Below are positions 4,846-27,853 of a stretch of 64,000 nt of DNA, one piece after another. Made by a program: the position numbers and the translations under genes. Positions within the stretch are counted from its first letter, which is position 1. Each line of letters opens with the position of its first letter. This stretch comes from Rhizobium sp. 9140 (GTDB lineage Bacteria > Pseudomonadota > Alphaproteobacteria > Rhizobiales > Rhizobiaceae): positions 62,001 to 126,000 of the forward strand of contig NZ_FJUR01000002.1 of the NCBI RefSeq assembly GCF_900067135.1, given 5' to 3'. The notes under the pieces were generated by a model. The model ran no database searches. It saw only the letters and a program-made list of their open reading frames with translations, and was not told the DNA's origin.

Positions 4846-4862
4846 ATGATGATTGTCATCAT
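4846..4862. promoter_or_regulatory. Class A TetR operator candidate (hydrolase)
   Basis: Perfect palindrome ATGATGA-TTG-TCATCAT, 77 bases before the probable ATG of the hydrolase. It differs in only two central bases from the site at 27655-27671 in front of the TetR gene at 27017, which suggests that this regulator controls the hydrolase. Confidence 0.6.
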
Positions 4863-4874
4863 TGATAGCTTTAT

Positions 4875-4888
4875 ATTATGACCGTAAT
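4875..4888. promoter_or_regulatory. Class B TetR operator candidate (hydrolase)
   Basis: ATTATGACCGTAAT, whose complement differs by a single base from ATTACGATCATAAT at 30184-30197 in front of the TetR gene at 30223. It lies 12 bases from the class A site, so the hydrolase promoter may answer to both regulators. Confidence 0.5.
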
Positions 4889-4985
4889 CTTTTTGTCAAT
4901 CGGCACGCGTCAATATTCGAGACGAGGTCCGACGACGACGCCCTTGTCCTGATCCCGTAAATCTGACAAAAACCGTCAGCTTAGC

Positions 4986-5960
4986 GTGGCATTCGATGGC
5001 GTCGTGGGTTTGTCGATCTGCAGGCCGATGAACGGGTTTCAAGCAAGCGGGCATTTCATCATGAGCTTCTGGCATACGATGTCGTGGAAGACGGACGGGA
5101 TCACCGTGTCGGCTCCGGTGCAGTGGCGGCAGCTGGATGGCATGGTGACGGTGCTCTGGGAGGCGGAAAGCCAGGCCGGGGCCAGCGGCTACTATCTGGC
5201 GGATGATCCCCGCATCATGTTCTTCTTCAACGACGTTTCGCCGAACGTGCGCATTTCAAACTGCAGCGATGATTTCACCCGCAACGCGCGCGCCATGCCG
5301 CGAGCCGTCTATGTGCCCGCAGGCATGCCGATGTGGACCACAAGCCGGAGCGCGCACCGCTTCAGCCATCTCAATCTCCATCTGCACAAGGATCGGATTC
5401 TTCGCTACCTCTCCCCGTCGGTCGGCAGTTCCTGCGCGCAGGCGGCGCTTCGCCGTCCGGCCGAACTTCACGATATCGCCGGTATCGACGCGCTCGCGCG
5501 GCTGCTTGCAACCGAGATCCGGTCTCCGACCAAACATGCCGTCTATGCCGAGAGCCTCGTCGGCAGCATCGTGGCGGGGCTGCTCGATATTCCAGCCGAA
5601 GCCGATCAAAGGGCCGGAGGCCGCCTGACACAGGCGCAGATGAACAAGCTGCTGATGCATGTGGACAAGGTCGGCGGCTATCGCATGTCGGTGGCCGACA
5701 TGGCGGCGACCGTCGGGCTCTCGGAAAGCTGGTTCTCGAGCGTCTTCAAGAAGACGACCGGCCAGACGCCGCTGCAATGGCAGCTCTGCAAGCGGATCGA
5801 ACAGGCCAAGCAGATGCTCGGCAAGGGTGACCTGCCGGTGGCCAGCATCGCAGCCCAACTCGGCTTTTCCGATCAGGCGCACCTGACCAAGGTGTTTCGG
5901 CAGGTAGAGGGCGAGACGCCGGCGGCGTGGCGGCGTCTGCAACAGATCCGCTCGCTCTGA
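4986..5960 (+). CDS. AraC-family regulator, siderophore-linked
   Basis: Up to 324 residues. The C-terminal hundred hold two helix-turn-helix units (MSVADMAATVGLSESWFSS and VASIAAQLGFSDQAHLTKVF), typical AraC/XylS. The N-terminal two thirds is a ligand-binding region of the kind found in siderophore-responsive activators. It converges on the TonB-dependent receptor and sits in an iron-uptake locus, so ferric-siderophore sensing is likely but inferred. The start is uncertain: GTG at 4986, ATG at 5028 and ATG at 5061 are all in frame and none has a convincing ribosome-binding site. Confidence 0.85.
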   Translation: MAFDGVVGLSICRPMNGFQASGHFIMSFWHTMSWKTDGITVSAPVQWRQLDGMVTVLWEAESQAGASGYYLADDPRIMFFFNDVSPNVRISNCSDDFTRNARAMPRAVYVPAGMPMWTTSRSAHRFSHLNLHLHKDRILRYLSPSVGSSCAQAALRRPAELHDIAGIDALARLLATEIRSPTKHAVYAESLVGSIVAGLLDIPAEADQRAGGRLTQAQMNKLLMHVDKVGGYRMSVADMAATVGLSESWFSSVFKKTTGQTPLQWQLCKRIEQAKQMLGKGDLPVASIAAQLGFSDQAHLTKVFRQVEGETPAAWRRLQQIRSL

Positions 5961-5961
5961 C

Positions 5962-5991
5962 GCCCGCCCGGCGCGTGATGCGCAGGCGGGC
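5962..5991. terminator. Shared hairpin between convergent genes
   Basis: GCCCGCC (5962-5968) pairs with GGCGGGC (5985-5991), and an inner GCGC pair extends the stem. It lies between the stops of the AraC gene and the TonB-dependent receptor. No T-run follows on either strand. Confidence 0.4.
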
Positions 5992-6006
5992 ATCTGCGCC
6001 GTCAGT

Positions 6007-8139
6007 TCACCACGTCTGGCGAAGCGTCGCCATCAGCTTTCGGCCGGGATTGTAGTAGACCGCACCCGAATCTGTGCTGGCGATGTGCTTCTCGTCGAAC
6101 ACGTTGTTGACGTTCAGCTGGAACGTCGTGTTCTCCTGAACCCTGTAGGTGTAGGCCACGTCGAACACGACGGCGCTTTCCGACGTCTTCGTATTCTCGA
6201 TGTCGGTATAGTAGGAGTCGAGGTAGCGTGCACCGACGCCGAAGGTCATGTCGCCGCGCGCGCCCTGTCCTGCCAGCGTGTATGTACCCCAGATCGAGGC
6301 GAGGTGCTCAGGCACGCGCATCAACCGGTTGCCGTCATTGGCGCCGCCCGGCTCCTCGATCTTGGAATCGATGTAGCTATAGGCCGCGATGATGTCGATC
6401 TGGTCCGTGACTTCCGCCTTGGCTTCCAGTTCGAAGCCGCGATGCCGCACCTTTTCCACCGTCTGCGGCAGGTAGGTTACCTGATCGTAGACGGTGATGT
6501 TGCCCTTGGTCAGGTCGTAGACGGATGCGGTGATGAGGGCGGGGAAGGCTTCCGGACGGTACTTGATGCCGAGTTCGTACTGCTTGCCGGTCGTCGGGTC
6601 CGCGCCGGAGGCAGGCGGTGCCGCGGATTCGGCATAGCTGATGTAGGGTGCCAGTTCCTCGGTGATCTTGTAGCTCGCACCGATGCGCTTGGTGAATTCG
6701 CTGTGATTGCCCGACGACGTGGAGCCGGCGAGGAGATCGGTTTCGCTGAGATCCAGCCAGTCGTTGCGCAGGCCGACGCTGACCGTCAGCTTGTCGAAGA
6801 AGGTCAGGTCCTGCTGCATGTAGACGGCGGCCGTCTTCTGGTCGTTGTCAACGCTGGAATAGGGCGACAGGCTGCCCGGCCCACCGGAGTAGATCGGGTT
6901 TTCCCAGTCGATCGATGGCGCCGATGTGTAGAAGTTATCGGTGTCGGACTCGAATCTGTTGTACTCGGTGCCGAACAGCGTCCGGCTCTCGACAGTGTCG
7001 GTGCGGGTTTCGTAGACGAGGTTCGCATCGATGATGAACTGCTCGGACGACTTGTTGCTGCCGAAGAAGTAGCGGCTTGCGGTGGTCGAGCCATCGGTTG
7101 GCGTTCCCCCGATATAGGCGCTGCCGAACCCGTCGTTGAGGTTGCTGTAGCGCGCGTTGGACCCAAAGCTCAGGCCGTTGCCGAAGTCGTGGTCGAACAT
7201 GACGCTGTAGCTGTTGCGGTTCGTATCGCGGAAATAATAGTCCGGCTCGCCGAAGAAGGTGTCCCGGTCGAAATCCGTGCCAAGCGGATGTCCGCCGCTG
7301 CCGGGAACGCCGTCTTTGTCGAGGTGATCGAAGACGACGGTCAGGTTCGTGGCCGCATCCGGGCGCCAGGTCAGGCCGCCCATGATGAAGTTCTCGTCGT
7401 CCTGCGAATAGTCGTATTCGGCATCGGCGCGCTGGAACTTGCCCGTGAGGCGGTAGGACAGCGTGTCGTCGCCGGTGAGGTTGTCGCCGAAGTCGAAGCC
7501 GAGTTCCTTGTGCGCGAACGAGCCGCCGGTGCCGTAGACCTCGCCGAAACGCTCCCGCTTTGGTGTCTTGGTGACGTAGTTGACCGAGCCGCCCGGCTCG
7601 GCCGCGCCGAAGCCGGAGGAGCTTGCCCCCTTCAGCACCTCGATCCGCTCATAGGCGTAAGGCTCTTCCCGCGTGCCGGCAAAGGTCCGGCCGATCGCAA
7701 GGCCATCACGGTAGGTGTAGGGCGTGAAGCCGCGAATGTCGAAATAGTCGTATCGGTCGTCCGAGCCGTAGAAGTCGGTGATGACACCGGCGGTATACTG
7801 GACCACCTGCTCGACGGTATCCGCGCCGCGCTGCTCGATCTCCTTCGAGGTGATGACGGAGACGGAGGCCGGCGCCTTCAGGATGTCCGTCGGCAGCTTG
7901 CCGGTGGCGGTCGTTTCCGTGGCGACGATGGATTGCGAATCATTGTCCGTGTTGAGCACCGTTCCGCTCGACCCGCCCTGGACGACAATGGTTTCGAGCG
8001 CCGTCGCGCCGCTCGCCGCGTCCTGGGCAGATGCGATGGTCGGCGACAGGGCGGCCAGTGCGGTGCAGCCGAGAAGGATGGCGCCCCGGTGGGAAAGCGG
8101 CGCGAGCCTCCGGTGGGTGCGTGTTCTATCGATATCCAT
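6007..8139 (-). CDS. TonB-dependent siderophore receptor
   Basis: 710-residue outer-membrane receptor of the FhuA/FoxA type, importing a ferric siderophore with energy from TonB-ExbBD. A signal peptide (about residues 1-38) ends ASAQD, then a TonB-box-like ETIVV, the plug domain (about 75-200, with IEVLKGASSSGFG and GGSVNYVTK) and a 22-strand barrel ending in a terminal aromatic (RQTW). The length is normal. Which siderophore it binds cannot be read. It diverges from the ABC importer at 8434 and converges with the AraC gene, forming one iron-uptake locus, so iron repression is expected. Confidence 0.93.
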   Translation of the reverse strand: MDIDRTRTHRRLAPLSHRGAILLGCTALAALSPTIASAQDAASGATALETIVVQGGSSGTVLNTDNDSQSIVATETTATGKLPTDILKAPASVSVITSKEIEQRGADTVEQVVQYTAGVITDFYGSDDRYDYFDIRGFTPYTYRDGLAIGRTFAGTREEPYAYERIEVLKGASSSGFGAAEPGGSVNYVTKTPKRERFGEVYGTGGSFAHKELGFDFGDNLTGDDTLSYRLTGKFQRADAEYDYSQDDENFIMGGLTWRPDAATNLTVVFDHLDKDGVPGSGGHPLGTDFDRDTFFGEPDYYFRDTNRNSYSVMFDHDFGNGLSFGSNARYSNLNDGFGSAYIGGTPTDGSTTASRYFFGSNKSSEQFIIDANLVYETRTDTVESRTLFGTEYNRFESDTDNFYTSAPSIDWENPIYSGGPGSLSPYSSVDNDQKTAAVYMQQDLTFFDKLTVSVGLRNDWLDLSETDLLAGSTSSGNHSEFTKRIGASYKITEELAPYISYAESAAPPASGADPTTGKQYELGIKYRPEAFPALITASVYDLTKGNITVYDQVTYLPQTVEKVRHRGFELEAKAEVTDQIDIIAAYSYIDSKIEEPGGANDGNRLMRVPEHLASIWGTYTLAGQGARGDMTFGVGARYLDSYYTDIENTKTSESAVVFDVAYTYRVQENTTFQLNVNNVFDEKHIASTDSGAVYYNPGRKLMATLRQTW

Positions 8140-8394
8140 GTGCAGTATCCAGATTGACGTGACGCGAGGGCGGCCGGCCGGGCCGGTCGGTAGTCCGGGT
8201 GGGTTCGCACTGCGCGTCTGCGTGATATCTCGCCGTCCAGTTCGCTCGACTGCGTGTTCGTCCCCGCGTACCCTATAACTGGAGGAATTTTATCGAGTAT
8301 TGTCGAATCCACCGGTTTTGTAGAATCCGATGCCTAACTATCCAACTTTCCGAGGTGGGGTTGCTTTACCGTTGACGCCACGGAATGAAGCTGA

Positions 8395-8410
8395 AAGTTG
8401 AGGTCAACTT
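8395..8410. promoter_or_regulatory. 16-bp palindrome before the siderophore ABC operon
   Basis: AAGTTGA-GG-TCAACTT, a perfect palindrome ending 23 bases before the start of the binding-protein gene, within the 293-base divergent promoter region 8140-8433. It could be bound by the AraC protein or an iron regulator. I saw no clear Irr or RirA consensus in the rest of the region. Confidence 0.5.
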
Positions 8411-8433
8411 ATGTCCGTTGAAGGGTTCGGGAG

Positions 8434-9426
8434 ATGAGATATTTCCGCTTCGCCACGCAGATCGTCATGGCTGTCTGGCTGCTTATGCAGGGTCATGCGC
8501 TGGCAGCCCAGGGCGACGCCTATCCCATCACCATCCGGCATGCGTTCGGTACAACGGTCATTGAAAAGAAGCCGGAGCGCGTGGCGGCCGTCGCTTGGGC
8601 AAATCACGAAGTGCCGCTTGCGCTCGGCATCGTTCCCGTCGGCATGGCGCGCGCCAATTTTGGCGACGACGACAATGACGGGATCCTTCCCTGGGTAAAG
8701 GCACGTCTGGACGAACTGGGTGGCGAGACGCCAGTGCTTTTCGACGAAGGCGACGGTATCGACTTCGAAGCGGTCGCAGCGACCCATCCTGATGTTATTC
8801 TCGCGGCCTATTCCGGTATCAGCCAGGCAGATTACGACACGCTGAGCCAGATCGCACCCGTCATTGCCTATCCCCAAGCGCCCTGGTCCACCGACTGGCG
8901 CGAGACGATCCGGCTCGACAGCGCCGGGCTTGGAATGGCGAAGGAGGGCGAGGCGCTGATTGCCGGGATCGAGGCCGACATCGCCAGCACGCTCGCCGGG
9001 CATCCGGAGTTGAAGGGCAAATCGGCAATGTTCATCACGCATCTGAGCGCGTCGGACCTCAGCATCATCAATTTCTACACGACCAATGACACGCGGGTGA
9101 AGTTCTTCGCAGATCTGGGGCTGGCCTCGCCGAAAAGCGTTATCGAGGCATCGCAGCCGGGGAAATATTCCGGTTCCGTCAGCGCCGAGCAGATCGATGC
9201 GTTCGATGACGTCGATATTCTCGTGACCTACGGAGATCAGGCGCTTTTCGATTCGCTCAAGGCCAATCCGCTGACGCGGCACATGCCGGCGGTGGCGAAC
9301 GGAGCGCTCGTGATGCTCGGCAACGATCCGGTGGGCAACGCCGCCAACCCGACGCCGCTTTCGATCCGCTGGGTGCTGAAGGATTATGTCTCGCGGCTGG
9401 GCGCGGCGGCCAAGACCCGGAAATGA
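8434..9426 (+). CDS. Iron-siderophore ABC transporter, periplasmic binding protein
   Basis: 330 residues, FecB/FepB/FhuD class (helical-backbone binding protein). An N-terminal signal peptide runs to about residue 25 (HALAAQG). Typical segments are PERVAAVAWANHEVPLALG at the start of the mature domain and the late NPLTRHMPAVANG. It delivers the ferric siderophore from the receptor to the inner-membrane permease. First gene of an operon whose neighbours overlap by four bases each (ATGA at 9423). Confidence 0.92.
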   Translation: MRYFRFATQIVMAVWLLMQGHALAAQGDAYPITIRHAFGTTVIEKKPERVAAVAWANHEVPLALGIVPVGMARANFGDDDNDGILPWVKARLDELGGETPVLFDEGDGIDFEAVAATHPDVILAAYSGISQADYDTLSQIAPVIAYPQAPWSTDWRETIRLDSAGLGMAKEGEALIAGIEADIASTLAGHPELKGKSAMFITHLSASDLSIINFYTTNDTRVKFFADLGLASPKSVIEASQPGKYSGSVSAEQIDAFDDVDILVTYGDQALFDSLKANPLTRHMPAVANGALVMLGNDPVGNAANPTPLSIRWVLKDYVSRLGAAAKTRK

Positions 9427-10469
9427 CATCGGCCGCGATCAAAAACCCCGCCCGTCGCCACGGCATCGTCGCCCGCTCCAGCCGGATGCGCGGGCTCTGG
9501 CTTCTCGTGCTCGTCGCCGTGCTCGCGCTGCTTGCCGCGCTGTCGGTCACCATCGGCACACGCGATGTTGCCTGGGCGGAGATCAGGACGGCGCTGGGCG
9601 GCGCGCAGGAGACGATCGGTCAGGCGGCGGTCGCACTTCGTCTTCCACGCACCCTTCTTGCCGTGCTTGCTGGGGCCGCACTCGGGCTTGCCGGCGCGAT
9701 CATGCAGGGCGTTACGCGCAATCCGCTCGCAGATCCCGGCATTCTCGGCGTGAATATGGGGGCCTCTCTTGCCGTGGTCATCGGCGTGGCCTGGTTCGGG
9801 GTGACCTCGGCGCATGCCTATATCTGGACGGCGATTTCGGGTGCGGGCGGTGCTGCAGTGTTCGTCTATACGATCGGATCGCTCGGTCGCGGCGGTGCGA
9901 CGCCGCTCAAGCTGGCGCTGGCGGGTGCCGCGACCTCCGTCGCCTTCGCCTCGCTGGTCATCGCGATCGTTCTGCCACGCGGCGATATCGCAGGCGGCAT
10001 CCATGCCTGGCAGATCGGCGGCGTCGGCGGTGCCACCTATCAACGCGTCGTTCCCGTCCTGCCGTTTCTCGGCGTCGGCTTTGCCATCAGCCTCCTTTCC
10101 GCCCGCAAGCTGAACGCGCTGGCTCTCGGCGACGATGTGGCCGCTGGCCTTGGCGAGCATGTCGCCGCCGCCCGTGCCGTCGCTTCGCTCGGCGCGATCC
10201 TGCTTTGCGGCGCGACAACAGCTGTTTGCGGTCCGATTGGCTTCCTCGGCCTCGTAGTGCCGCACCTTTGCCGGACACTGATCGGCGTCGATCACCGGTG
10301 GCTGCTGCCGTTCTCGGCCCTTGGCGGCGCGGCCCTGCTGCTCGGCGCCGATATTCTCGGACGCATCGTTGCGCGGCCGGGTGAAATCGATGTCGGCATC
10401 ATCACCGCGCTCATCGGCGCCCCGTTCTTCATCTGGATCGTGCGGCGGCAGCGGGTGAGGGAGCTGTGA
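9423..10469 (+). CDS. Iron-siderophore ABC permease 1 (FecCD family)
   Basis: 348 residues with about nine membrane segments. FecCD signatures include RLPRTLLAVLAGAALGLAG, MQGVTRNPLADPGILG and the cytoplasmic GPIGFLGLVVPHLCR loop that contacts the ATPase. It pairs with the next gene as the inner-membrane channel. The first 35 residues are a basic cytoplasmic tail. The start ATG overlaps the stop of the binding-protein gene, which implies translational coupling. Confidence 0.93.
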   Translation: MTSAAIKNPARRHGIVARSSRMRGLWLLVLVAVLALLAALSVTIGTRDVAWAEIRTALGGAQETIGQAAVALRLPRTLLAVLAGAALGLAGAIMQGVTRNPLADPGILGVNMGASLAVVIGVAWFGVTSAHAYIWTAISGAGGAAVFVYTIGSLGRGGATPLKLALAGAATSVAFASLVIAIVLPRGDIAGGIHAWQIGGVGGATYQRVVPVLPFLGVGFAISLLSARKLNALALGDDVAAGLGEHVAAARAVASLGAILLCGATTAVCGPIGFLGLVVPHLCRTLIGVDHRWLLPFSALGGAALLLGADILGRIVARPGEIDVGIITALIGAPFFIWIVRRQRVREL

Positions 10470-11506
10470 GCGTGCCGTCCCGGACAATCGATTTCCTTGC
10501 CGATCATCGCCGTCGTCGTGCACGCCGTCATTCGATGGCGCTCGGCCTTTTGCTCGCGCTGATGGTCGTTGTCTTCGGCATAACCCTCTCCGTCGGCAAA
10601 AGCATCGTCGCGCCACTGGATGTCCTCAGAGTGCTCTCGGGCGAGCCGGTTCCCGGCACGTCCTTCACCGTCGGGCAACTGCGCCTGCCGCGCGCGGTCC
10701 TCTCGGTTGTCTCCGGCCTCTGCTTCGGGCTCGGCGGCGTCGCCTTTCAGATCATGCTGCGCAATCCGCTGGCGAGCCCGGATATTATCGGCATCACCTC
10801 GGGCGCGGGTGCCGCAGCGGTGTTTGCCATCGTCGTCCTCCAGATGTCGGGGCCGGTTGTGTCGCTGCTGGCTGTCGGGGCCGGGCTTGGCGTCGCCTTG
10901 CTCGTCTACGGATTGTCGTTCCGAAATGGCGTCGGTGGCACGCGTCTCATTCTGGTCGGCATCGGCGTTTCCGCCATGCTGCAAAGCGTCATCGCCTATA
11001 TCCTCTCCACCGCGCCCTCCTGGAGCCTGCAGGAGGCGATGCGCTGGCTGACGGGCAGCGTCAACGGCGCCCAGTTGCAGCAGGCCCTGCCGCTTCTTCT
11101 GGCGCTTGCCGTCTTCGGCGGCATTCTCCTCGGCCGCACCCGCGATCTCGAAGCGCTGAGGCTCGGCGACGATACCGCGTCGGCCCTCGGTGTTCGCGTC
11201 TCGCAAACCCGAATGCTGGTCATCGTCTCCGCCGTCGGCATGATTGCGGCGGCCACCGCCGTCACCGGGCCGATTGCCTTCGTCGCCTTCCTCGCAGGCC
11301 CTATCGCCGCACGCATCGTTCGCTCAAACGGATCTCTGCTCCTGCCGGCAGCGCTCGTCGGGGCGATCCTCGTTCTCGTCGGCGATTATGTCGGGCAGGT
11401 GCTGCTGCCCAGCCGCTACCCGGTCGGCGTCATTACCGGCGCTCTCGGCGCGCCATACCTCATTTTCCTGATTGTCCGCGTCAACCGGACAGGAGGTTCG
11501 CTGTGA
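10466..11506 (+). CDS. Iron-siderophore ABC permease 2 (FecCD family)
   Basis: 346 residues, second half of the permease pair. RLPRAVLSVVSGLCFGLGG, MLRNPLASPDIIG and GPIAFVAFLAGPIAARI match the first permease position for position. The GTG start at 10466 overlaps the previous stop by four bases. The order binding protein, two permeases, ATPase is that of fepBDGC/fecBCDE systems. Confidence 0.93.
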   Translation: MSVPSRTIDFLADHRRRRARRHSMALGLLLALMVVVFGITLSVGKSIVAPLDVLRVLSGEPVPGTSFTVGQLRLPRAVLSVVSGLCFGLGGVAFQIMLRNPLASPDIIGITSGAGAAAVFAIVVLQMSGPVVSLLAVGAGLGVALLVYGLSFRNGVGGTRLILVGIGVSAMLQSVIAYILSTAPSWSLQEAMRWLTGSVNGAQLQQALPLLLALAVFGGILLGRTRDLEALRLGDDTASALGVRVSQTRMLVIVSAVGMIAAATAVTGPIAFVAFLAGPIAARIVRSNGSLLLPAALVGAILVLVGDYVGQVLLPSRYPVGVITGALGAPYLIFLIVRVNRTGGSL

Positions 11507-12312
11507 CCAATCATTCCCTCGTCGCAACGGGGCTTTCCGCAGGTTATGACGGCAAGGAGATCCTGAACGGGCTCGATCTGACGATCCCCTCCGGCCGGAT
11601 CACCGTGATCGTCGGCGCCAATGCCTGTGGGAAATCCACCTTCCTGCGCACGCTGTCGCGGCTGCTTGTCCCGACGAAGGGACATGTGCTGCTCGATGGC
11701 AGGTCGATCCACCGCACGCCGGCGCGTCAGCTCGCCCGCACGCTCGGCCTTCTGCCGCAAGCGCCCATCGCGCCGGAGGGCATGACCGTCGCCGATCTCG
11801 TCAGCCGTGGTCGTCATCCCCACAAGAGCCTGTTCTCTCGCTGGACGCGCAGCGACGACGAGGCCGTGGATGGCGCGCTCGCCGCGACGAAAACCTTCGA
11901 TCTCGCCGAGAGGCCCGTCGACGAGCTTTCCGGCGGCCAGCGCCAGCGGGTCTGGATCGCCATGGCGCTGGCCCAGGAGACCGAAATCCTGTTGCTGGAC
12001 GAGCCCACGACCTTCCTCGACATCAACCATCAGATCGAGGTGCTCGACCTCCTCACGGATCTCAACCGCGAGCGCGGCACGACGGTCGTCATGGTGCTGC
12101 ACGATCTCAACCTCGCGGCCCGCTATGCCGATGATCTCGTCGCCATGGCCGGGGGACGGATTTACGCTTTCGGCACGCCCGAAGCGGTGCTGACGGAAGA
12201 CATGGTCCGCGAGGTCTTCGGCCTCGAAAGCCGCATCATTAAAGATCCCCTGTCGGGCCGCCCCATGATGCTGCCCATCGGGCGCCACAGGATGGCCGGT
12301 AGCGGGAGTTGA
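11503..12312 (+). CDS. Iron-siderophore ABC transporter ATPase
   Basis: 269 residues, FepC/FecE class. Walker A GANACGKST (about residues 38-46, with Ala-Cys in place of the usual Gly-Cys or Gly-Ser), signature LSGGQRQRVWIAMALAQ, Walker B LLLDEPTTFLD and the switch histidine in MVLHDLNLA. It powers import through the two permeases. GTG start, four-base overlap with the upstream gene. Confidence 0.94.
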   Translation: MTNHSLVATGLSAGYDGKEILNGLDLTIPSGRITVIVGANACGKSTFLRTLSRLLVPTKGHVLLDGRSIHRTPARQLARTLGLLPQAPIAPEGMTVADLVSRGRHPHKSLFSRWTRSDDEAVDGALAATKTFDLAERPVDELSGGQRQRVWIAMALAQETEILLLDEPTTFLDINHQIEVLDLLTDLNRERGTTVVMVLHDLNLAARYADDLVAMAGGRIYAFGTPEAVLTEDMVREVFGLESRIIKDPLSGRPMMLPIGRHRMAGSGS

Positions 12313-12372
12313 TCTCCAGCCCTGGCGGATGTTACGCCGCATCGAGACCCTGCATGCTGATGGAGAAAGCCC

Positions 12373-12888
12373 ATGACGACTACGGATTACACGGCCTTCG
12401 TCGCCGCGCTGGCCGGCGAGGGGCAGCCGATGGCGGCCTATGCCGCGCTGGAGGCCCTGACGCAGGCTCTGGTTGGGGTGAAGCTCTTCACCATCATGAC
12501 GAGTGACACGACCACCCGCGTGGCCGAGCGGGTCTATTCCAATATGCCGGAGCAATATCCGGTTTTCGGCACCAAGCCCTATAACGAGACGCACTGGTCC
12601 GACATCACCCTCACGCGGCAGCAGACCTTCGTGGCGAACACGATCGAGGAGATCGCGGAGGTATTCGGCGATTACGAACTCATCGATTCCCTCGGCTGCC
12701 AGTCGGTCATCAACGTGCCGATCGTCGTCGGAGGAACCGTGATCGGCACCATCAACTGCCTGCACGAGACCGGTTTCTACACGCCGGAACGCGTTGCGGC
12801 GGCCGAGGCGCTGAAGCTTCCCGGCGCGGTCTGCATGCTGCTGGCCGCAAGCGGCAGGACGGACAGCGAGAACGTCGCCGTCGTTTGA
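12373..12888 (+). CDS. GAF-domain protein
   Basis: 171 residues forming one GAF-like domain (YAALEALTQALVGVKLFTIM at the start, INVPIVVGGTVIGTINCLHE in the middle). No enzymatic or DNA-binding domain is attached. It lies 60 bases after the siderophore ATPase on the same strand, so it may be cotranscribed. GAF domains of this stand-alone kind bind small molecules or act as methionine sulfoxide reductases; the single Cys pattern of fRMsr is not evident, so I leave the role open. Confidence 0.75.
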   Translation: MTTTDYTAFVAALAGEGQPMAAYAALEALTQALVGVKLFTIMTSDTTTRVAERVYSNMPEQYPVFGTKPYNETHWSDITLTRQQTFVANTIEEIAEVFGDYELIDSLGCQSVINVPIVVGGTVIGTINCLHETGFYTPERVAAAEALKLPGAVCMLLAASGRTDSENVAVV

Positions 12889-16581: not shown

Positions 16582-16600
16582 TTGCGATTTTCGAAGGGCG

Positions 16601-20275: not shown

Positions 20276-21227
20276 CGAAAGCTCCCATGCGGCGGGCGGC
20301 CCAGAGGTAGGCGCTCATGATGACGATGGGGACCAGCGTGAAGGCGGCAGCGAGGGGCAGGTTGCCGGCGGTGCCTTGCTGCGCATAGACCGCCTGCCCG
20401 ATGAAGAGGCGGGAGGAGCCGATGATCTGCGGGATGATGTAGTCGCCGAGCGTCAGCGAGAAGGTGAAGATGGAGCCGGCGACGATACCCGGCAGCGCAA
20501 GCGGCAGCAGTACATGACGAAACGTCTGGCGCGGACGGGCGCCGAGATCGGCCGAGGCTTCGACAAGACTGCCGGATACCCGTTCGAGCGCCGCCTGTAT
20601 CGGCAGGATCATGAAGGGCAGCCACACATAGACGAAGACCATGAAGGTGCCTGTATAGCTGACCGAGAGCGAGTTGCCGCCGATAAAGGGTATCGCGAGC
20701 CAGGCATCGAGAAGCCAGATGAGATGCAGCTTTGTAAACAGCCAGGTGAGAATGCCCTCCTTCGCAAGGATCAGCTTCCAGGCGTAGATCTTCACGAGGT
20801 AGCTCGACCAGAGCGGCAGCATGACACCGAGATAGAAGACGGCCTTCCAGACGCCCTGCGCATAGCGCGCGGCATAGTAGGCGATGGGAAAGGCGATGAC
20901 GATCGAGGCCAGCGTCACGCTCGCTGCCATCAGGACGGTGCGCAGGATGATGTCGAAATTCGCGTCCGAGAAAAGCTGCCGGTAGGTGGCAAGCGTCGGC
21001 TCGTAGGTCACAAGGCCGGAGAAATCGTCGATGGCGAAAAGGCTCTGGGCGAGGAAGATCGCGAGCGAGCCGAGATAGACGACGCCGAGCCAAAGGAGCG
21101 GCAGGCAGAGAAGCAAGGCCAGAAACAGCTTGGGGTGCCGCCAGAAGATATCTGAAAGGCGACCCGTCCCAGGCCTGCCCGGGGTCATCGTCGCATTGCC
21201 CTGGTGAACCTGCGAGGCCATCGCCAT
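20265..21227 (-). CDS. ydcU: Putrescine/spermidine-type ABC permease 1 (YdcU/PotB)
   Basis: 320 residues from ATG 21227, which shares one base with the TGA of the ATPase gene. It has six membrane segments after a cytoplasmic N-terminus ([20 protein letters not shown] is the first). The EAA loop is [20 protein letters not shown]. Partner of YdcV. Confidence 0.9.
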
Positions 21228-22222
21228 CAGGCTTCCTCCATCACGTGGAGGTCCTGCCGGTCGAAGGCGAACGTTATGGGTATGCCGTTGGCGGGAACGG
21301 GCGTGCCGGCCGGGAGCGATGCGACGATACGCTGGCCGCCGCAATCGAGCGTCAGCCGGTTGATCGGGCCGAGAAAGCTCGCGGCAATCGGCACGCCGGT
21401 GAGCCCCAGCTGATCATCGGCGGGCGTTCCGAGCAGGATCGACTCCGGACGCAGGCTGGCGGCGGGGGCGTCGAGGCCAAGCCGCTGGCATTGTTCGCGG
21501 GAGAGAACGTTGGAGGAGCCGACGAAATCGGCGACGAACCGCGTCTTCGGGCGGCGGTAGATCTCTTCGGGCGTCCCCACCTGTCGCACCTTGCCCTCTT
21601 GAAAAACGGCCACCCGGTCGGCCATCGACAGGGCCTCGCTCTGGTCGTGGGTGACGAAGATGAAGGTGAGGCCGAGCGTCTTCTGAAGGGTCTTCAGCTC
21701 TTCCTGCATCTGCTCGCGCAGCTTCAGGTCCAGCGCGCCCAGGGGTTCGTCCAGCAGCAGCACGCGTGGCCGGTTGACGAGCGCCCGGGCCAGAGCCACG
21801 CGCTGGCGCTGGCCGCCGGAGAGCTGGCCGGGTTTGCGCGCGCCATAGCCGGGCAGGGCGACCATCGCCAGCGCTTCCTTCGCCGCCCGCCTCCGCTCGG
21901 TCTTCCCCATGCCCTTGACCATCAGCCCGTAGGCGACGTTGTCGAGGATGGAGAGGTGCGGAAACAGCGCGTAGTCCTGAAAGACCGTGTTAACGTTGCG
22001 CCGGTAGGGCGGCACGCCTTCCGCCGTCTCGCCAAAGATCTCGATATGGCCGGATGTCGGCTGCTCGAAGCCGGCGACGAGCCGCAGGCAGGTCGTCTTG
22101 CCGGAGCCCGAGGGGCCGAGCATGGCGAAGAACTCGCCGTCCGCAACCGCGAGATCGACGCCATCGACGGCGCGCACGCTGCCGAAATGGCGCGAGACGT
22201 TTTCGAAGAGGATGGCGGTCAT
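21227..22222 (-). CDS. ydcT: Putrescine/spermidine-type ABC ATPase (YdcT/PotA)
   Basis: 331 residues from ATG 22222 (GGAG six bases before; an ATG-less extension to 22240 is less likely). Walker A GPSGSGKTT, Q-loop VFQDYALFPH, signature LSGGQRQRVALARAL, Walker B LLLDEPLGALD and switch His in FVTHDQSEAL are all present. A TOBE domain follows (about residues 240-325). The gene is separated from the binding-protein gene by a long palindromic repeat. Confidence 0.93.
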   Translation of the reverse strand: MTAILFENVSRHFGSVRAVDGVDLAVADGEFFAMLGPSGSGKTTCLRLVAGFEQPTSGHIEIFGETAEGVPPYRRNVNTVFQDYALFPHLSILDNVAYGLMVKGMGKTERRRAAKEALAMVALPGYGARKPGQLSGGQRQRVALARALVNRPRVLLLDEPLGALDLKLREQMQEELKTLQKTLGLTFIFVTHDQSEALSMADRVAVFQEGKVRQVGTPEEIYRRPKTRFVADFVGSSNVLSREQCQRLGLDAPAASLRPESILLGTPADDQLGLTGVPIAASFLGPINRLTLDCGGQRIVASLPAGTPVPANGIPITFAFDRQDLHVMEEA

Positions 22223-22345
22223 TGTGGCTCCATTGGGCAAGGACGAATGTCGTGACGGTGTGCCGTGTCCGTGGTCTGCGGGGGGGGCGGGAGGCGCCTT
22301 GTGCAGTGGTCGATGGCGCCATCTTCACGCGTACCAGACCCGCGA

Positions 22346-22448
22346 CGTCATCCTCGGGCTTGTCCTGAGGATCTGAGCCCTTCATCGGGAAATCGACGTT
22401 ATGCGCGGTCGCTTTCAGCAGATCCTCGGGACAAGCCCGAGGATGACG
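22346..22448. repeat. Rhizobial RIME-like palindromic element
   Basis: Two 30-base arms (22346-22375 and 22419-22448) are inverted copies of each other with one mismatch, 43 bases apart. Each contains the CCTCGGGCTTGTCC core of rhizobial intergenic mosaic elements. The element sits in the transcript between the binding-protein gene and its ATPase, the usual place for a hairpin that protects or ends the upstream message. Confidence 0.8.
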
Positions 22449-22487
22449 GAGGAGAGAGAGATGAGGCGGTCGGCATGCTGTCTCGCG

Positions 22488-23648
22488 TCACCGCCCGCCA
22501 ATGACGCCGATATAGTCGGACACCCAGCGGTGGTAAGGCACGCATTCGCTCTGGCCGGCGCATTTGGCAACCGGCGTCTTCCAGAACTTCACCTTGTCGA
22601 AGTTCTCGTAGCCATTGGTCTTGCAGCCTTCGTCCGTCAGCAGCGCATTGCCTTTGCAGGCAGCGCCGACGGAAGGATTGGCGCCGAACCAGGCGGACAC
22701 ATCGCCCTGAACCTTGGGCGAAAGCGAATGCTCCATCCACATATAGGCGCAGTTCGGGTGGGCGCTTTCGGAGGACAGCATCGTCGTATCGGCCCAGCCG
22801 GTCGTGCCTTCCTCCGGGAAGACGGCGGCGATCGGCTGCTTTTCGGCCGTCAGCAGATTGACCTGAAACGGCCACGAGCCGGAGGCGACAACGCCTTCGT
22901 TCTTGAAGTCGTCGATCTGGATCATGGCGTCGTGCCAGTAGCGGCCGACCAGCGTGCGCTGGACACGAAGAATATCGAGTGCCGCCTTGTACTGTTCCTC
23001 GTTCAGCTCGTAAGGGTCCTTGATGCCGAGTTCCGGCTTGTGCGCCATCAGGTAGTTGGCGGCGTCCGCGACGTGGATCGGCCCGTCATAGGCCTGAACG
23101 CGGCCCTTGTTGGACTTGCCGTCCGGCAGGGTCATCTCCTCGAAGACCACCTTCCAGCTTTTCGGCGGTTCACCCTTGAACGCCTCGGTATTGTACATCA
23201 GCACGTTCGGACCCCAGACATAGGGGGTGCCGTAGTGGACGCCCTTGACCGTGTGCCAGGGTGCATCCTGCATGCGGGCATCCAGCGTCTTCCAGCTGGG
23301 AATGAGGTCGGTGTTCACCGGCTGCACACGCTTGCCGGCCACAAGACGGAGTGACGCGTCGCCGGATGCGGTGACGAGGTCAAAGCCGCCTTCGTTCATC
23401 AGCGCGACCATTTCGTCGGAGGTCGCGGCTGTCTTCACCGAGACCTTGCAGCCGCTCGATTTCTCGAAATCTGTAACCCAGTCATAGGCTTTGTCGGTCT
23501 CGCCGCGCTCGATATAGCCGGCCCATGCCACGATCGACAGTTCGCCTTCGCCCTTGCCAAGCGTCTTCAAAGGCTCCTGTGCAATGGCGGACGTGGCAAA
23601 GGCAAGCGAGAGGGCAAGGGTGGTGCAGGACTTCAGAATCTTGATCAT
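22488..23648 (-). CDS. ydcS: Putrescine/polyamine periplasmic binding protein YdcS
   Basis: 386 residues, PotD-type binding protein with a signal peptide (to about residue 23, AIAQE). It matches remembered E. coli YdcS segments nearly word for word: SVKTAATSDEMVALM, DLVTASGDASLRL, GKSNKGRVQAYDGPI and GWADTTML. It captures putrescine or a related amine for YdcTUV. First gene of the operon; the LysR gene lies upstream in the same direction, 118 bases away. Four cysteines near the C-terminus (for example AACKGNALLTDEGCK) may form disulfides. Confidence 0.93.
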   Translation of the reverse strand: MIKILKSCTTLALSLAFATSAIAQEPLKTLGKGEGELSIVAWAGYIERGETDKAYDWVTDFEKSSGCKVSVKTAATSDEMVALMNEGGFDLVTASGDASLRLVAGKRVQPVNTDLIPSWKTLDARMQDAPWHTVKGVHYGTPYVWGPNVLMYNTEAFKGEPPKSWKVVFEEMTLPDGKSNKGRVQAYDGPIHVADAANYLMAHKPELGIKDPYELNEEQYKAALDILRVQRTLVGRYWHDAMIQIDDFKNEGVVASGSWPFQVNLLTAEKQPIAAVFPEEGTTGWADTTMLSSESAHPNCAYMWMEHSLSPKVQGDVSAWFGANPSVGAACKGNALLTDEGCKTNGYENFDKVKFWKTPVAKCAGQSECVPYHRWVSDYIGVIGGR

Positions 23649-23745
23649 CTGTGGTCTCCCGGTTCGGCCGTTGTTCGGCTCGTCTGTTCCCGGAAAGAAA
23701 GGTGCCGCGCTTCTGCCGCATTCGCAAATTCATTAAACAGATAGC

Positions 23746-23762
23746 CGGTATCGGTTTTACCG
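23746..23762. promoter_or_regulatory. Inverted repeat CGGTA-N7-TACCG upstream of ydcS
   Basis: Lies just past the LysR stop and about 100 bases before ydcS. The arm spacing would suit a LysR or other dimeric regulator, but it is short and could be chance. Confidence 0.3.
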
Positions 23763-23766
23763 AAAG

Positions 23767-24678
23767 CTAGTTGCGTCCGCGCCCGCTGCGCAGATTTTCC
23801 ACGACGCCGATGAAATCACGCGCGGACTGTGGCAGGCTCGATCCTTTCCGCCAGACCATTCCGACCTGCACCACGGGCAGGGCGCCGGACACGTCGCGGC
23901 TTTCGATCCGGTCGCCTTCCAGAGACCAGGGCCGATAGACGAGATCCGGCAGGAGCGCGATACCGGCGCCGGTGGCAACAAGGCTGCGCACGGCTTCCAC
24001 CGAGCGGGTGCGGAACGCCACATGCGGACGGGCGCCGAGGGCAGCGAGCAGTTTGCCGGTGTTTTCCTCGATTTCGTCCACCGTCAGCATGATCAGCGGC
24101 TCCTGCGCGACATCCGATATCGAAATGATATCGGCCGAGACGAGCCGATGGCCGAGCGGCAGCCAGAGCCTGTAGGGCGAGGTCTCGATGATCTCCGCCT
24201 GCAGCGCCATGCGATCGCGCAGGTTGGAAATGACCATCACGGCGACATCGAGCTCGCCGCCGACGAGAAGATGTTCGAGATAGGAACCGTTGTCCTCTAT
24301 CGCGCTGACATCGACCGAGGGGAATGCCCGGCGATAGCGCGCCAGAAGATCCGACAGAACATAGCCCGCCACCAGCGACGTCACGCCGAGATTGAGCTTG
24401 CCCGTCGCGGCTTCCGGTGTTTCGGCAAACGAGCGGCGGGCATCTTGCACGCCTGCCAGGATCTTCGTCGCATGGCGCAGAAACTGGTGCCCGTTATGGG
24501 TGATATGCAGGCCGCGCGGATGCCTGTCGAAGAGCGCCACGCCGAGATCGCTTTCAAGTTCCTTGATCGCTTCGGTGATCGAGGATTGTGAGATGGACAG
24601 ATTCTGTGCCGCCCGGGTGACAGACCCCTGTTCGGCAACGGCAACGAAGAACTGAAGCTGGCGGAGCGTGAAGGCCAT
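23767..24678 (-). CDS. LysR-family transcriptional regulator
   Basis: 303 residues. The N-terminal winged helix is classical (FTLRQLQFFVAVAEQGSVTR, then SISQSSITEAIKELE). A two-lobed effector domain starts near residue 90 (LNLGVTSLVAGYVLSDLL). It stands directly upstream of ydcS, so polyamine-dependent control of that operon is a reasonable guess; the same-strand rather than divergent arrangement weakens it a little. Confidence 0.88.
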   Translation of the reverse strand: MAFTLRQLQFFVAVAEQGSVTRAAQNLSISQSSITEAIKELESDLGVALFDRHPRGLHITHNGHQFLRHATKILAGVQDARRSFAETPEAATGKLNLGVTSLVAGYVLSDLLARYRRAFPSVDVSAIEDNGSYLEHLLVGGELDVAVMVISNLRDRMALQAEIIETSPYRLWLPLGHRLVSADIISISDVAQEPLIMLTVDEIEENTGKLLAALGARPHVAFRTRSVEAVRSLVATGAGIALLPDLVYRPWSLEGDRIESRDVSGALPVVQVGMVWRKGSSLPQSARDFIGVVENLRSGRGRN

Positions 24679-24744
24679 CCCTTGGTTATCGGGATGTGGC
24701 TGCGGCTTGGCAAGTCCTGCGGTGACCGGAACGGTACGCTTGTC

Positions 24745-25248
24745 TTACGGGTTTGTCCCCCGTCCGATGAGCAGCTCGGACAGCGTCACCGGCCGCAGCC
24801 CTTGTGCATCCACGCCGACATCGAACTGCCGCAGCATCGGCTTCAGGCGTCCGTGCGAATGCCCATGGAGATCGATCGATTTCTTGCCCATCTTATTCCA
24901 GGTGCGGAACGCGTAGTGGCAGAGAATCAGATGTTGACCGTCGAGAAGGATCTCTGCATAGGCCTGAACACTCGACCAGCCTTTCGCTGCGGTCGTCGTT
25001 TCCGGATCGTTGTTGCCAATGATGAGGTGCTTGCGGCCATTCAAGGCGTCGAGCAATGCCGCGCAGTCGCCCCGCGGCGAGATGACGTCGCCCAAATGCC
25101 AGACCTCGTCATCCTCTCCGACGATGGCGTTCCAATTTGCGATCAGAGCAGCATCGTGGTCGGCCATTGTGGAAAACGGGCGGCGGTCGATGCGCAGGAC
25201 GCGCGGATCGCCGAAATGCGTGTCGCTGGTAAAGTAGATCATCGGCAT
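24745..25248 (-). CDS. Calcineurin-like metallophosphoesterase
   Basis: 167 residues with the metal-binding motifs of the family: SDTHFGD (Asp, His), GDVIS, GNND, LCHYAF and HGHSHG, and ISPRGDCAALLDALNGRKHL between them. A cytoplasmic phosphohydrolase of the kind often called predicted phosphoesterase in phage and bacterial genomes; substrate unknown. No ribosome-binding site is obvious before ATG 25248. Confidence 0.85.
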   Translation of the reverse strand: MPMIYFTSDTHFGDPRVLRIDRRPFSTMADHDAALIANWNAIVGEDDEVWHLGDVISPRGDCAALLDALNGRKHLIIGNNDPETTTAAKGWSSVQAYAEILLDGQHLILCHYAFRTWNKMGKKSIDLHGHSHGRLKPMLRQFDVGVDAQGLRPVTLSELLIGRGTNP

Positions 25249-25343
25249 GATCTGGCGCCGGTGCGGACGAGATCAACCCGTTAAAAGCCCGTCGATGGTC
25301 GTGCCGCTTGACCCAAGTGGATCAGCGCCACACGTTCCAGCCT

Positions 25344-25517
25344 ATGAAAGAACCGCGCTACACGAAATCCAACCTTCCCCAGAAGATCTGTGCCGCCTGC
25401 GGACGACCATTCGCATGGCGCAAGAAGTGGGCGCGCGACTGGGACGACGTCAAGACGTGCTCGGAACGTTGCAAGGGGGAACTGCGTCGGAAGACATCAG
25501 CAGGGTCACCCGCGTAA
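25344..25517 (+). CDS. DUF2256 small zinc-ribbon-like protein
   Basis: 57 residues from ATG 25344. It shows the DUF2256 pattern of a CxxC pair (KICAACGRPFAWRKKWARDW) and a later CSERC pair, four cysteines that probably bind zinc. In some genomes this family occurs with a photolyase or cryptochrome gene, but none is present here. An upstream in-frame TTG at 25308 is possible. Function unknown. Confidence 0.75.
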   Translation: MKEPRYTKSNLPQKICAACGRPFAWRKKWARDWDDVKTCSERCKGELRRKTSAGSPA

Positions 25518-25639
25518 GCGAGCTTGGCACGTCCTGAATGGCGCGCGGCGCTCCTGGAAAACGCATGTTCGGGCGATTACGCCACGCCCACCGGACTATA
25601 CTCCGCGGCAGGCTCGTCTATAGAGTCTCGCAGGAATGC

Positions 25640-25670
25640 GCAGATCTTTCCGCTCTCGGCGGAGATCTGC
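25640..25670. promoter_or_regulatory. Hairpin in the leader of the MFS gene
   Basis: GCAGATCT (25640-25647) pairs with AGATCTGC (25663-25670), with an inner CCG/CGG pair. It lies 29 bases before the transporter start. It may be a terminator for the DUF2256 transcript or part of the leader. The remainder of 25518-25698 shows nothing else. Confidence 0.35.
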
Positions 25671-25698
25671 CTTTGCGCTGCGGAATGGGGATGGCGAT

Positions 25699-27012
25699 AT
25701 GGCGTCGATGACGATGGATGAAGCGCTGGATCGTGCCGGCACGGGTCGGTTCCAGCGCAGGCTGCTCGGCGTGTTCGGTCTCGTGTGGACGGCCGATGCC
25801 ATGCAGGTGCTCGCCGTGGGTTTTACGGCTGCCTCCATCGCGGCAACCTTTGAACTGACCGTGCCGCAGGCGCTGCAGACGGGGACGCTGTTCTTCCTCG
25901 GAATGCTCATCGGCGCCGTTGTCTTCGGGCGGCTCGCGGACCGTTGGGGTCGTCGGCGCGTGCTTCTGCTCACCGTCGCCTGTGACGCCGTGTTCGGGAC
26001 GCTCTCGATTTTCGCGCCGGATTTCACGAGCCTGCTGGCCTTGCGGTTTCTCACCGGCGTCGCGGTCGGTGGCACGCTGCCGGTCGATTACGCCATGATG
26101 GCGGAGTTCCTGCCGGCGCGAAACCGCGGCCGCTGGCTCGTCATGCTGGAAGGCTTCTGGGCGGTGGGCACGCTGGTGATCGCGCTCGCTGCCTGGGCGG
26201 CAAGTGTCGCCGGCGTGGCGGATGCCTGGCGCTACATCTTCGCGGTCACCGCGCTGCCGGCCATCATTGGCGTCGGCCTTCGCGTCTTCGTGCCGGAATC
26301 GCCCTACTACCTTCTGCGTGCAGGCCGGACGGAGGACGCGAAAGCTATCGTCAACCGCATGCTGGTGATGCATGGCAAGCTTGCTCTCACGGCCGGCGAA
26401 CGGCTGGTCGCGGCGCCGAAAACAGCGTCCGAAGGCGTCTTCTCGCCACCCTTGCGCCGTCGCAGCCTGCTGATCCTCGCCGTCTGGTTTCTGGTCTCCG
26501 TTTCCTATTACGGCATCTTTACATGGATGCCGGCGCGCCTTGCGAGCGAGGGCTTCGGCTTCGTGCGCGGCTATGGTTTCCTGGTGTTCGTGGCTCTGGC
26601 GCAGATCCCCGGCTATGCACTCGCCGCTTTTGGTGTGGAGCGGTGGGGACGGCGGCCGACGCTGATCGGCTTCTGCCTTCTCTCCGCGCTCGGCTGCCTG
26701 CTGTTCGTCCTGTCTCCGGACGATGTTCTGATCGGGGCGTCGCTGCTTGTGATGAGCTTCGCCCTGCTTGGAACATGGGGTGCGCTTTATGCCTTCACCC
26801 CGGAACTCTACCCCACGGCCTCCCGCGCCACCGGCATGGGTGCCGCAGGCGCGGTCGCGCGGCTCGGCGGCCTCATCGCTCCGACGCTGATGACCTTCGT
26901 CGTGACCTTCGGGGTCGGTGTGGCGGTCGGGCTCTTTGCAGCGCTCCTCGTCTGCGCCGCTTTCGCGGCCCGCCTGATCGATGCGGAAACGCGGCAGGCA
27001 TCGCTCGCCTGA
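25699..27012 (+). CDS. Major facilitator transporter, sugar/organic-anion porter type
   Basis: 437 residues from ATG 25699. Twelve membrane segments; the family loop motif GRLADRWGRRRVLLL is between segments 2 and 3, and a second copy VERWGRRPTL comes after segment 8. RNRGRW and PESPYYLLRAGR resemble the sugar-porter/SV2-like branch, whose bacterial members carry sugars, aromatic acids or nicotinate. It converges on the TetR gene at 27017, four bases away. Substrate unknown. Confidence 0.85.
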   Translation: MASMTMDEALDRAGTGRFQRRLLGVFGLVWTADAMQVLAVGFTAASIAATFELTVPQALQTGTLFFLGMLIGAVVFGRLADRWGRRRVLLLTVACDAVFGTLSIFAPDFTSLLALRFLTGVAVGGTLPVDYAMMAEFLPARNRGRWLVMLEGFWAVGTLVIALAAWAASVAGVADAWRYIFAVTALPAIIGVGLRVFVPESPYYLLRAGRTEDAKAIVNRMLVMHGKLALTAGERLVAAPKTASEGVFSPPLRRRSLLILAVWFLVSVSYYGIFTWMPARLASEGFGFVRGYGFLVFVALAQIPGYALAAFGVERWGRRPTLIGFCLLSALGCLLFVLSPDDVLIGASLLVMSFALLGTWGALYAFTPELYPTASRATGMGAAGAVARLGGLIAPTLMTFVVTFGVGVAVGLFAALLVCAAFAARLIDAETRQASLA

Positions 27013-27016
27013 AGCG

Positions 27017-27604
27017 TTATCGGCAAAGCAGTCCGTCAGACGCCTTGGCCTCGGAAACCCCGCCCTCCGCCTTGATCCAGGCGCGCGTTTCCCGAAGCAC
27101 CTCGTCGGAAAGCTCGGGATCAACGATGGCGCGGGAGAGAATGATCGCGCCGACCATCGCGGCCCAGCTGCCGATGACGGCCCGTCGCATTTCAGGACTC
27201 GTGTCGCCATCCTCCGCCCGGCTCATGCGCGCAATCTGTGTCTGCAGGCCTTCTGTAATTGCGGTCCGCGCCGCGGTACCCTGATGACGGCTTTCGGCGC
27301 TCAAGCCGGCGATCGGGCAGCCGGCGCCTGGATTGTCGCGATGACGCGGGGTAAGATACTGATCCAGATAGGCCGCGATATCCTGCGTCTCGTTCACCTG
27401 CGCGCGGAAGGTGCTGGCCAAGGCTTGGGCCACCAGATCGTCTTTCGAGGTGAAGTGGCCGTAGAACCCGCCATGCGTAAGGCCGGCGGCCTTCATCACC
27501 TCGGAGACGGTGACCGCCTCGAAACCCTTTTCCCGAAACAGCCTGCTGGCCGCATCCAGAATCCGCAGGCGGTTTTCCGCCATCTGTTCCCGACTGACCT
27601 TCAT
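27017..27604 (-). CDS. TetR-family regulator, likely electrophile-sensing
   Basis: 195 residues from ATG 27604. The helix-turn-helix is VSEVMKAAGLTHGGFYGHF. The C-terminal domain is of the LmrA/YxaF type and carries a cysteine at residue 96 (GAGCPIAGL) in the position matched by Cys102 of the second TetR in this window. A 17-bp operator-like site lies 51 bases upstream, and near-copies stand before the SDR-AcuI operon and the alpha/beta hydrolase. So it probably represses itself and those genes until a reactive compound is met. This mechanism is an inference. Confidence 0.9.
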   Translation of the reverse strand: MKVSREQMAENRLRILDAASRLFREKGFEAVTVSEVMKAAGLTHGGFYGHFTSKDDLVAQALASTFRAQVNETQDIAAYLDQYLTPRHRDNPGAGCPIAGLSAESRHQGTAARTAITEGLQTQIARMSRAEDGDTSPEMRRAVIGSWAAMVGAIILSRAIVDPELSDEVLRETRAWIKAEGGVSEAKASDGLLCR

Positions 27605-27654
27605 GTCGATCGTCTCCCCAGTCCTTGCCGCACATCGCCGTGCCGGCAGCAATC

Positions 27655-27671
27655 ATGATTGTTGTCATCAT
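27655..27671. promoter_or_regulatory. Class A TetR operator candidate (autoregulation)
   Basis: ATGATTGTTGTCATCAT, upstream of the TetR gene, differs from the hydrolase site at 4846 at two central bases only. Arms ATGAT and ATCAT are inverted copies. Confidence 0.6.
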
Positions 27672-27809
27672 TGTAAAGGTTGCAACCTGCGAAGGCAATG
27701 GCCGGCCTTTGGTGCTTGCAACCGTATTTCCCGCCGGGCACCTCGTCGGCGCACCTCGTCGACACGGACACCGAAGAACGGTCTCCCGAACAAAGCCATT
27801 GACAGTTTC

Positions 27810-27823
27810 ATGATGATCATCAT
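27810..27823. promoter_or_regulatory. Perfect palindrome ATGATGATCATCAT
   Basis: 14 bases, 60 bases before the SDR start. It has the same arms as the 4846 site (ATGATGA and TCATCAT) without the three-base spacer, so it may be a variant or second site of the same regulator. Confidence 0.45.
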
Positions 27824-27836
27824 AAATAATCCGCAG

Positions 27837-27853
27837 ATGACCATCGTCATCAT
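27837..27853. promoter_or_regulatory. Class A TetR operator candidate (SDR-AcuI operon)
   Basis: ATGACCATCGTCATCAT, 31 bases before the TTG start of the SDR gene. The right half GTCATCAT and the ATGA start are identical to the other two class A sites. Confidence 0.5.

Follow-up and report, generated by a model that had tools for sequence, protein, structure and literature searches.

The 64,000-nucleotide stretch of Rhizobium sp. 9140 analysed here (contig NZ_FJUR01000002.1, positions 62,001 to 126,000; called the window below, with positions counted from its first letter) probably holds a dispersed regulon under two paralogous TetR-type repressors, TetR1 (gene at 27017) and TetR2 (gene at 30223), both of which would act on the promoter of an alpha/beta hydrolase gene at 3907. 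TetR1 would recognise the type-1 operator ATGAYNNNNRTCAT, with one site over its own promoter and two at the promoter of a gene pair encoding a short-chain dehydrogenase (SDR) and an AcuI-type reductase, one copy between the -35 and -10 elements and one near the transcription start. Upstream of its own gene, TetR2 would recognise the type-2 operator ATTAYNNNNRTAAT. The hydrolase promoter was probably derived from an ancestral type-1 pair, having kept the putative TetR1 site near the transcription start and now carrying a candidate TetR2 site between -35 and -10. We also lean, though only slightly, towards the view that in this TetR subfamily replacing His44 by Asn alone switches the recognised half-site from ATGA to ATTA, and that one genus of the same family changed one site of an ancestral type-1 pair, in both of its half-sites, to the sister code and so obtained a two-input gate for the displaced hydrolase. 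The sites, operon neighbours, promoter layout and helix-operator correlation come from comparison, in the case of the operators of sequences throughout; from these we infer that the proteins bind the sites and repress, and likewise the descent of the hydrolase promoter, its two-signal logic, the sensing role of the cysteine and the nature of the ligand.

A preliminary description of this DNA had proposed that a 17-bp operator links TetR1, the SDR-acuI pair and the hydrolase. The three 17-mers are present letter for letter (4846-4862, 27655-27671 and 27837-27853) and have the right half GTCATCAT in common, and the window contains 18 matches to ATGATNNTNGTCATCAT (up to three mismatches, both strands) against 3.14 expected, a number reached in none of 100 shuffles. 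The 17-bp register itself had to be abandoned, since orthologous promoters share a 14-bp core, ATGAYNNNNRTCAT, which is usually paired. The best copy had been overlooked: it reads ATGATGATCATCAT at 27810-27823, 27 bp from its partner at 27837. A further type-1 copy stands at 30181, before the TetR2 gene (among 50 of the 70 places found). The site at 27655 lies 51 bp before the TetR1 ATG at 27604, an alternative TTG start at 27652 being less likely; the site ending at 27850 lies 34 bp before the SDR start; and the site at 4846 lies 77 bp before the conserved ATG position of the hydrolase at 4769, or 115 bp before its GTG at 4731.

The type-1 operator follows TetR1 across genomes. In the best 80 loci with TetR1 relatives from named genomes, searched over an interval that opens 350 bp upstream of the TetR match start and closes 60 bp inside it, the palindromic core ATGAYNNNNRTCAT is found next to the TetR start, at the regulator's own promoter, in 79, compared with 1 of 1600 base-shuffled regions. 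This count retains all 80 loci, including the six (L055, L059, L060, L062, L063 and L089) in which no protein could be read from the match start and which were left out of the residue counts. Paired sites occur at 67 of the 80 loci; among the 149 type-1 sites collected, neighbours are mostly 28 bp (45 cases), 26 bp (14) or 25 bp (5) apart, with single cases of 3, 27, 29, 30, 104 and 143 bp. With the divergent gene running forwards, TTGAC stands at most 14 nt before the first copy in 66 of the 67 paired loci, which places this copy in the spacer that separates -35 from -10; its partner falls near the expected transcription start. The SDR-acuI promoter of the window (27799-27850) has the same layout as these paired operators. 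The TetR1 promoter has one operator copy, a -10-like TACAAT (27670-27675) and TTGCCT (27693-27698). A generic promoter scan found the TetR1 promoter alone and none in 4600-5100; for the SDR and hydrolase genes, the case for a promoter is made from the conserved TTGACA.

The preliminary description had named equally good matches inside genes as a danger to its proposal, and in a genome-wide search with the crude 17-mer (up to three mismatches) 19 of the 28 returned loci do lie inside a called open reading frame (ORF). With a matrix built from orthologous promoters, however, 14 W-flanked cores separate into five scoring 7.0-14.7 and nine scoring at least 15.4. These nine are the five window sites and four other places (C2:327498, C2:481594, C2:654516 and C2:1009918), among which C2:481594 lies within a called ORF, right at the beginning. 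We set the four aside as further members, for none has a partner site and only C2:654516 has a link: this strong operator (L134, 1503-1974) is separated by about 170 bp from what is left of the 3' end of an acuI gene (66% identity over 64 residues), perhaps the trace of another copy of the cluster that has decayed. The lone type-1-like palindromes at C2:327498 (L132) and C2:481594 (L133) precede an arabinofuranosidase-like and a thioesterase-like gene, respectively, both named from their translations.

Comparison of the operons suggests where the hydrolase came from. The gene divergent from TetR1 in the relatives is typically an SDR, followed in varying order by an alkene reductase dependent on flavin mononucleotide (FMN), an MDR-type reductase, a second SDR, an alpha/beta hydrolase and sometimes AcuI. 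Counted over contiguous genes only, using our own gene calls and names taken from one representative per family, the divergent runs of the 80 loci contain the SDR cluster in 59 cases, the FMN alkene reductase in 35, the MDR-type reductase in 33, the hydrolase in 16 and AcuI in 2. On plasmid At of Agrobacterium fabrum C58, TetR is followed by a divergent SDR, an alkene reductase, an alpha/beta hydrolase (67.6% identical to that of the window) and an NADP-dependent oxidoreductase. Across 101 genomes including this one (E up to 1e-40), the hydrolase was found in 8, TetR1 in 10 and both in 6. The two genes lie within 4 kb of each other in two genomes (G003 and G023, the latter, like the former, with a TetR1 relative) and 22-39 kb apart in this genome (G000) and three congeners (G001, G004 and G005), and all four of the latter have kept a type-1 operator at the promoter of the displaced hydrolase. 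The window hydrolase is therefore best read as a former member of the SDR/TetR1 divergent operon that was displaced together with its operator. As to the earlier proposal of a single regulon joining hydrolase, SDR and AcuI, it gains from these data, given that all three neighbour such a TetR elsewhere and the operator persists in four of four genomes; it has to be amended in that the hydrolase promoter also bears a different type of site, matching the paralogous TetR2. This genome also encodes two alkene reductase homologues on C1, and neither operator type was seen in the loci fetched around them.

The second site, O1', stands where the corresponding promoters of relatives carry a type-1 core, with a -10-like TATAAA at 4870-4875, and belongs to the class ATTAYNNNNRTAAT, the operator type of TetR2 and its relatives. 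The same place reads ATTATGGTCGTAAT, ATTACGATCGTAAT and ATTACGACCGTAAT in the three congeners; the fixed letters are constant and only the Y, N and R positions vary. This composite promoter is present in the four genomes of the genus that possess an orthologue of TetR2 (92-100% identical). In G003, where a TetR1 relative and the hydrolase occur without a TetR2 orthologue (best match 37%), the hydrolase locus carries type-1 sites and no mixed pair. Two further genomes (G002 and G006) have no hydrolase match, and no mixed pair was seen beyond these hydrolase promoters among the loci compared. In the 5.43-Mb genome, the ATTAYNNNNRTAAT class occurs at three places, namely the hydrolase promoter, the TetR2 promoter and C2:267018. 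The class is no commoner than a control pattern, yet two of its three places are those that regulation by two repressors needs. Mesorhizobium AR07 has a TetR2-type regulator with two type-2 sites, and the genes running divergently from it encode an oxidoreductase, an alpha/beta hydrolase and an NADP-dependent oxidoreductase; G314 has a similar order, with one TAG in the TetR2 frame; judged from this gene order, the hydrolase occurs under either repressor type. A Rhodococcus opacus plasmid, from another phylum, encodes a TetR with an Asn helix, and a type-2 site (L213, 138-151) precedes a neighbouring gene for an alpha/beta hydrolase.

Both proteins belong to the TetR family (TetR_N 63.7 bits for TetR1 and 38.8 for TetR2, Pfam cut-off 24), and the difference between their operators is paralleled in the recognition helix, which reads THGGFYGHF in TetR1. 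The position that divides the proteins is the second residue of the T-x-G-x-FY motif (residue 44 in TetR1), with His found alongside ATGA sites and Asn alongside ATTA sites. We tabulated all TetR rows in the fetched loci, 144 reduced to 115 at 95% identity, and sought the operator within 260 bp. Of the rows with His, 84 have type-1, none has type-2 and 11 have neither; of those with Asn, 12 have type-2, none has type-1 only, one has both (this genome, in overlapping registers), two have a hybrid and one has none; the four Gln rows have neither type. Within the family, seven of the nine TetR2 relatives (this genome included) have a type-2 site, one has a hybrid and one a type-1 site, the last being L168, which is nearer TetR2 than TetR1 by sequence, yet has His and a type-1 site. 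Of twelve more from the order, six have type-2 sites, one has a hybrid and five, all with His, have neither. For a plasmid set the prediction was fixed beforehand: 17 of 38 TetR2 matches, picked for organism spread, gave five loci with type-2 and six without a site for Asn, three with type-1 and one with a hybrid for His, and no site for two other helices. The opposite type alone was seen in 0 of 17, and in three the site is over 1 kb upstream, ahead of the leading gene in a run on the same strand. The best tree of 32 hand-picked TetR rows needs a single change of the His/Asn label, with a support of 46/80. The SDR2 gene beside TetR2 is complete in G004; at the G005 locus none was seen. A second TetR2-like gene (G001:C33:211076, L204; 77% identical, Asn helix) has neither operator within 260 bp upstream.

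In its simplest form, repression would be promoter occlusion by repressor dimers. With both sites present, the hydrolase promoter would stay closed until both repressors let go. The signal is probably an electrophile, for example an alpha,beta-unsaturated carbonyl, which might be sensed at Cys96 of TetR1 and Cys102 of TetR2. This cysteine is kept in all TetR1 rows that could be read (75 of 75) and in all rows on the TetR2 side (16 of 16), and together with the predicted fold it suggests NemR-like electrophile sensing. The TetR1 structure prediction has a mean predicted local distance difference test score (pLDDT) of 85.8, with residues 44-46 in a short helix. The enzymes of the regulon, reductases including AcuI plus the hydrolase, would then remove the electrophile; the hydrolase gene is a probable electrophile-detoxification gene.

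Several observations weigh against this interpretation. AcuI, for one, is found in the contiguous run at just 2 of the 80 loci. The type-2 class is exactly as frequent in the genome as its control, the backward pattern also having three places, and C2:267018 is without a known link. Four genomes agree in the fixed letters of O1', but also in 166 of 265 columns of the whole region, and the site lacks the GCAAT flanks common around many type-2 sites. The composite promoter is probably one event common to four related genomes. Similarly, the His/Asn correlation is not phylogenetically independent and reflects few separate events, because the tree needs a single change. In the helix table, no site of either type stands within 260 bp in 11 rows with His and one with Asn, which include the TetR1 relatives of G003 and G023, and 8 of the 17 members of the plasmid set lack a site in the fetched stretch. 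Nor is the helix code strict, as mixed half-sites occur at L165 and L188 (both Asn), at L217 (His) and at the SDR promoter of G023. Finally, between 4700 and 4770 this strain has one base fewer than the three congeners, so that the conserved ATG at 4769, in frame in all three, is out of frame and GTG 4731 is the first codon of the open frame. Because of the missing base near its start, the hydrolase may be poorly translated in this strain; the loss may be real or may be an assembly error.

Some of these points would fit a regulon with a single repressor at the hydrolase promoter, with TetR1 acting alone, O1' as a type-1 site in weakened form, and TetR2 limited to itself and its own neighbours. 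O1' does occupy the place of O1 in the relatives and has the flanks of O1 rather than those with GCAAT, and mixed half-sites near His-type TetRs indicate some tolerance. The change in O1' is symmetric in both half-sites, however, with the same fixed letters in four of four genomes, and the result belongs to the TetR2 operator class with its three places in this genome; moreover, TetR2 is intact despite the SDR2 relic and although no c2-type reductase was found in the window. We therefore regard control by TetR1 alone as possible but rather doubtful.

Hybrid half-sites at L165, L188, L217 (upstream) and the G023 SDR promoter might also point to heterodimers or cross-binding, such that a blended pool of TetR1 and TetR2 reads mixed sites and composite promoters. 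Given that the two proteins are just 34% identical and homotypic sites dominate (84 type-1 with His and 12 type-2 with Asn, against two hybrids), this seems improbable to us. Still less credible, to the point of being very improbable, is that the sites serve another regulator or arise by chance. An AraC-type gene at 4986 is divergent from the hydrolase and adjoins it in the three congeners as well, and the crude 17-mer search gave many genic matches; yet the operator tracks TetR in 79 of 80 loci despite varied flanking genes, and shuffled sequence reproduces it in 1 of 1600 cases. Two paralogous repressors with a shared hydrolase promoter thus remain our preferred explanation, and the features on which it is built are collected in Table 1.

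Table 1. Genes, operators and promoter elements of the proposed regulon (window positions).
Feature	Position	Strand	Remarks
Alpha/beta hydrolase gene	3907..4731	-	Abhydrolase_1 84.5 bits; start uncertain
Type-1 operator O2, hydrolase promoter	4846..4862	.	Register 4846-4859 in all four genomes compared
Type-2 operator O1', hydrolase promoter, ATTACGGTCATAAT in gene sense	4875..4888	.	Between -35 and -10
-35 hexamer TTGACA, hydrolase promoter	4894..4899	-	Identical in 4/4 genomes
TetR1 repressor gene	27017..27604	-	195 aa from ATG 27604; TetR_N 63.7 bits
Type-1 operator ATGATTGTTGTCAT, TetR1 own promoter	27655..27668	.	Directly downstream of -10-like TACAAT
-35 hexamer TTGACA, SDR-acuI promoter	27799..27804	+	TTGAC in the same place in 66/67 paired loci
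Type-1 operator O1 ATGATGATCATCAT	27810..27823	.	Between -35 and AT-rich -10 region; best window matrix score, 32.9
Type-1 operator O2 ATGACCATCGTCAT	27837..27850	.	27 bp from O1; near expected transcription start
Short-chain dehydrogenase (SDR) gene	27884..28672	+	TTG start; adh_short 149.1 bits
AcuI-type acrylyl-CoA reductase gene	28710..29696	+	NF051456 490.8 bits, cut-off 440
SDR2 relic	29859..30095	-	Residues 20-101 of 269, 59% identity; divergent from TetR2
Type-2 operator ATTACGATCATAAT before TetR2	30184..30197	.	Overlaps type-1 register 30181-30194
TetR2, paralogous repressor gene	30223..30813	+	196 aa; helix TNGAFYPHF; 34% identical to TetR1

Around these features, a gene of the MFS family at 25636 is convergent with TetR1. 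Further to the left, 6007-12312 looks like an iron-siderophore uptake cluster, with a TonB-dependent siderophore receptor on the minus strand (6007-8139) next to the gene of a periplasmic binding protein (8434-9426) and to other genes on the plus strand.

For the strain, the regulon would be an otherwise ordinary one of the detoxification type. Its wider relevance would be that a TetR subfamily gains an operator code that can be read in dozens of genomes, with one candidate specificity residue. The hydrolase promoter could moreover be a natural case of rewiring, in which a gene left its operon, kept the site of its repressor and gained that of a paralogous repressor while the promoter layout stayed fixed.

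Several known systems resemble parts of this arrangement, and we do not claim membership of TetR1 in either NemR or AcuR. AcuR-acuI is a system of acrylate and DMSP (dimethylsulfoniopropionate) regulation, which likewise places an AcuI-type acrylyl-CoA reductase under a TetR-type repressor. The reductase of the window scores above the cut-off of its AcuI model (Table 1), whereas TetR1 reaches 27.3 bits with the AcuR model NF051457, well below the cut-off of 247. AvaR1, ScbR-like and other TetR repressors act from palindromic operators by promoter occlusion; they share the helix-turn-helix (HTH) family with TetR1, and the similarity lies mainly in the N-terminal half that contains the HTH. The nearest solved folds to the TetR1 prediction are those of 2fd5 and PA2196 (3rd3, and 4l62 with operator) from Pseudomonas aeruginosa, together with that of NemR (4yze). 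Identity to 2fd5 and PA2196 in the fold comparison is 22-32%, and 2fd5 is also similar by sequence profile (5.9e-30). NemR of Escherichia coli is a TetR-type sensor of electrophiles and bleach that controls nemA, with an old-yellow-enzyme reductase. Sequence similarity to NemR is low, and no NemR-named model is among the 20 NCBIfam models listed for TetR1, the NemR content of that library being unchecked. The cluster in this genome also differs in having SDR, AcuI and hydrolase genes and no alkene reductase, as well as two paralogous repressors. The predicted fold of TetR1 is close to 4yze, and points of possible resemblance to NemR are a conserved cysteine in the ligand domain and, in 35 of the 80 divergent runs of its relatives, an FMN alkene reductase.

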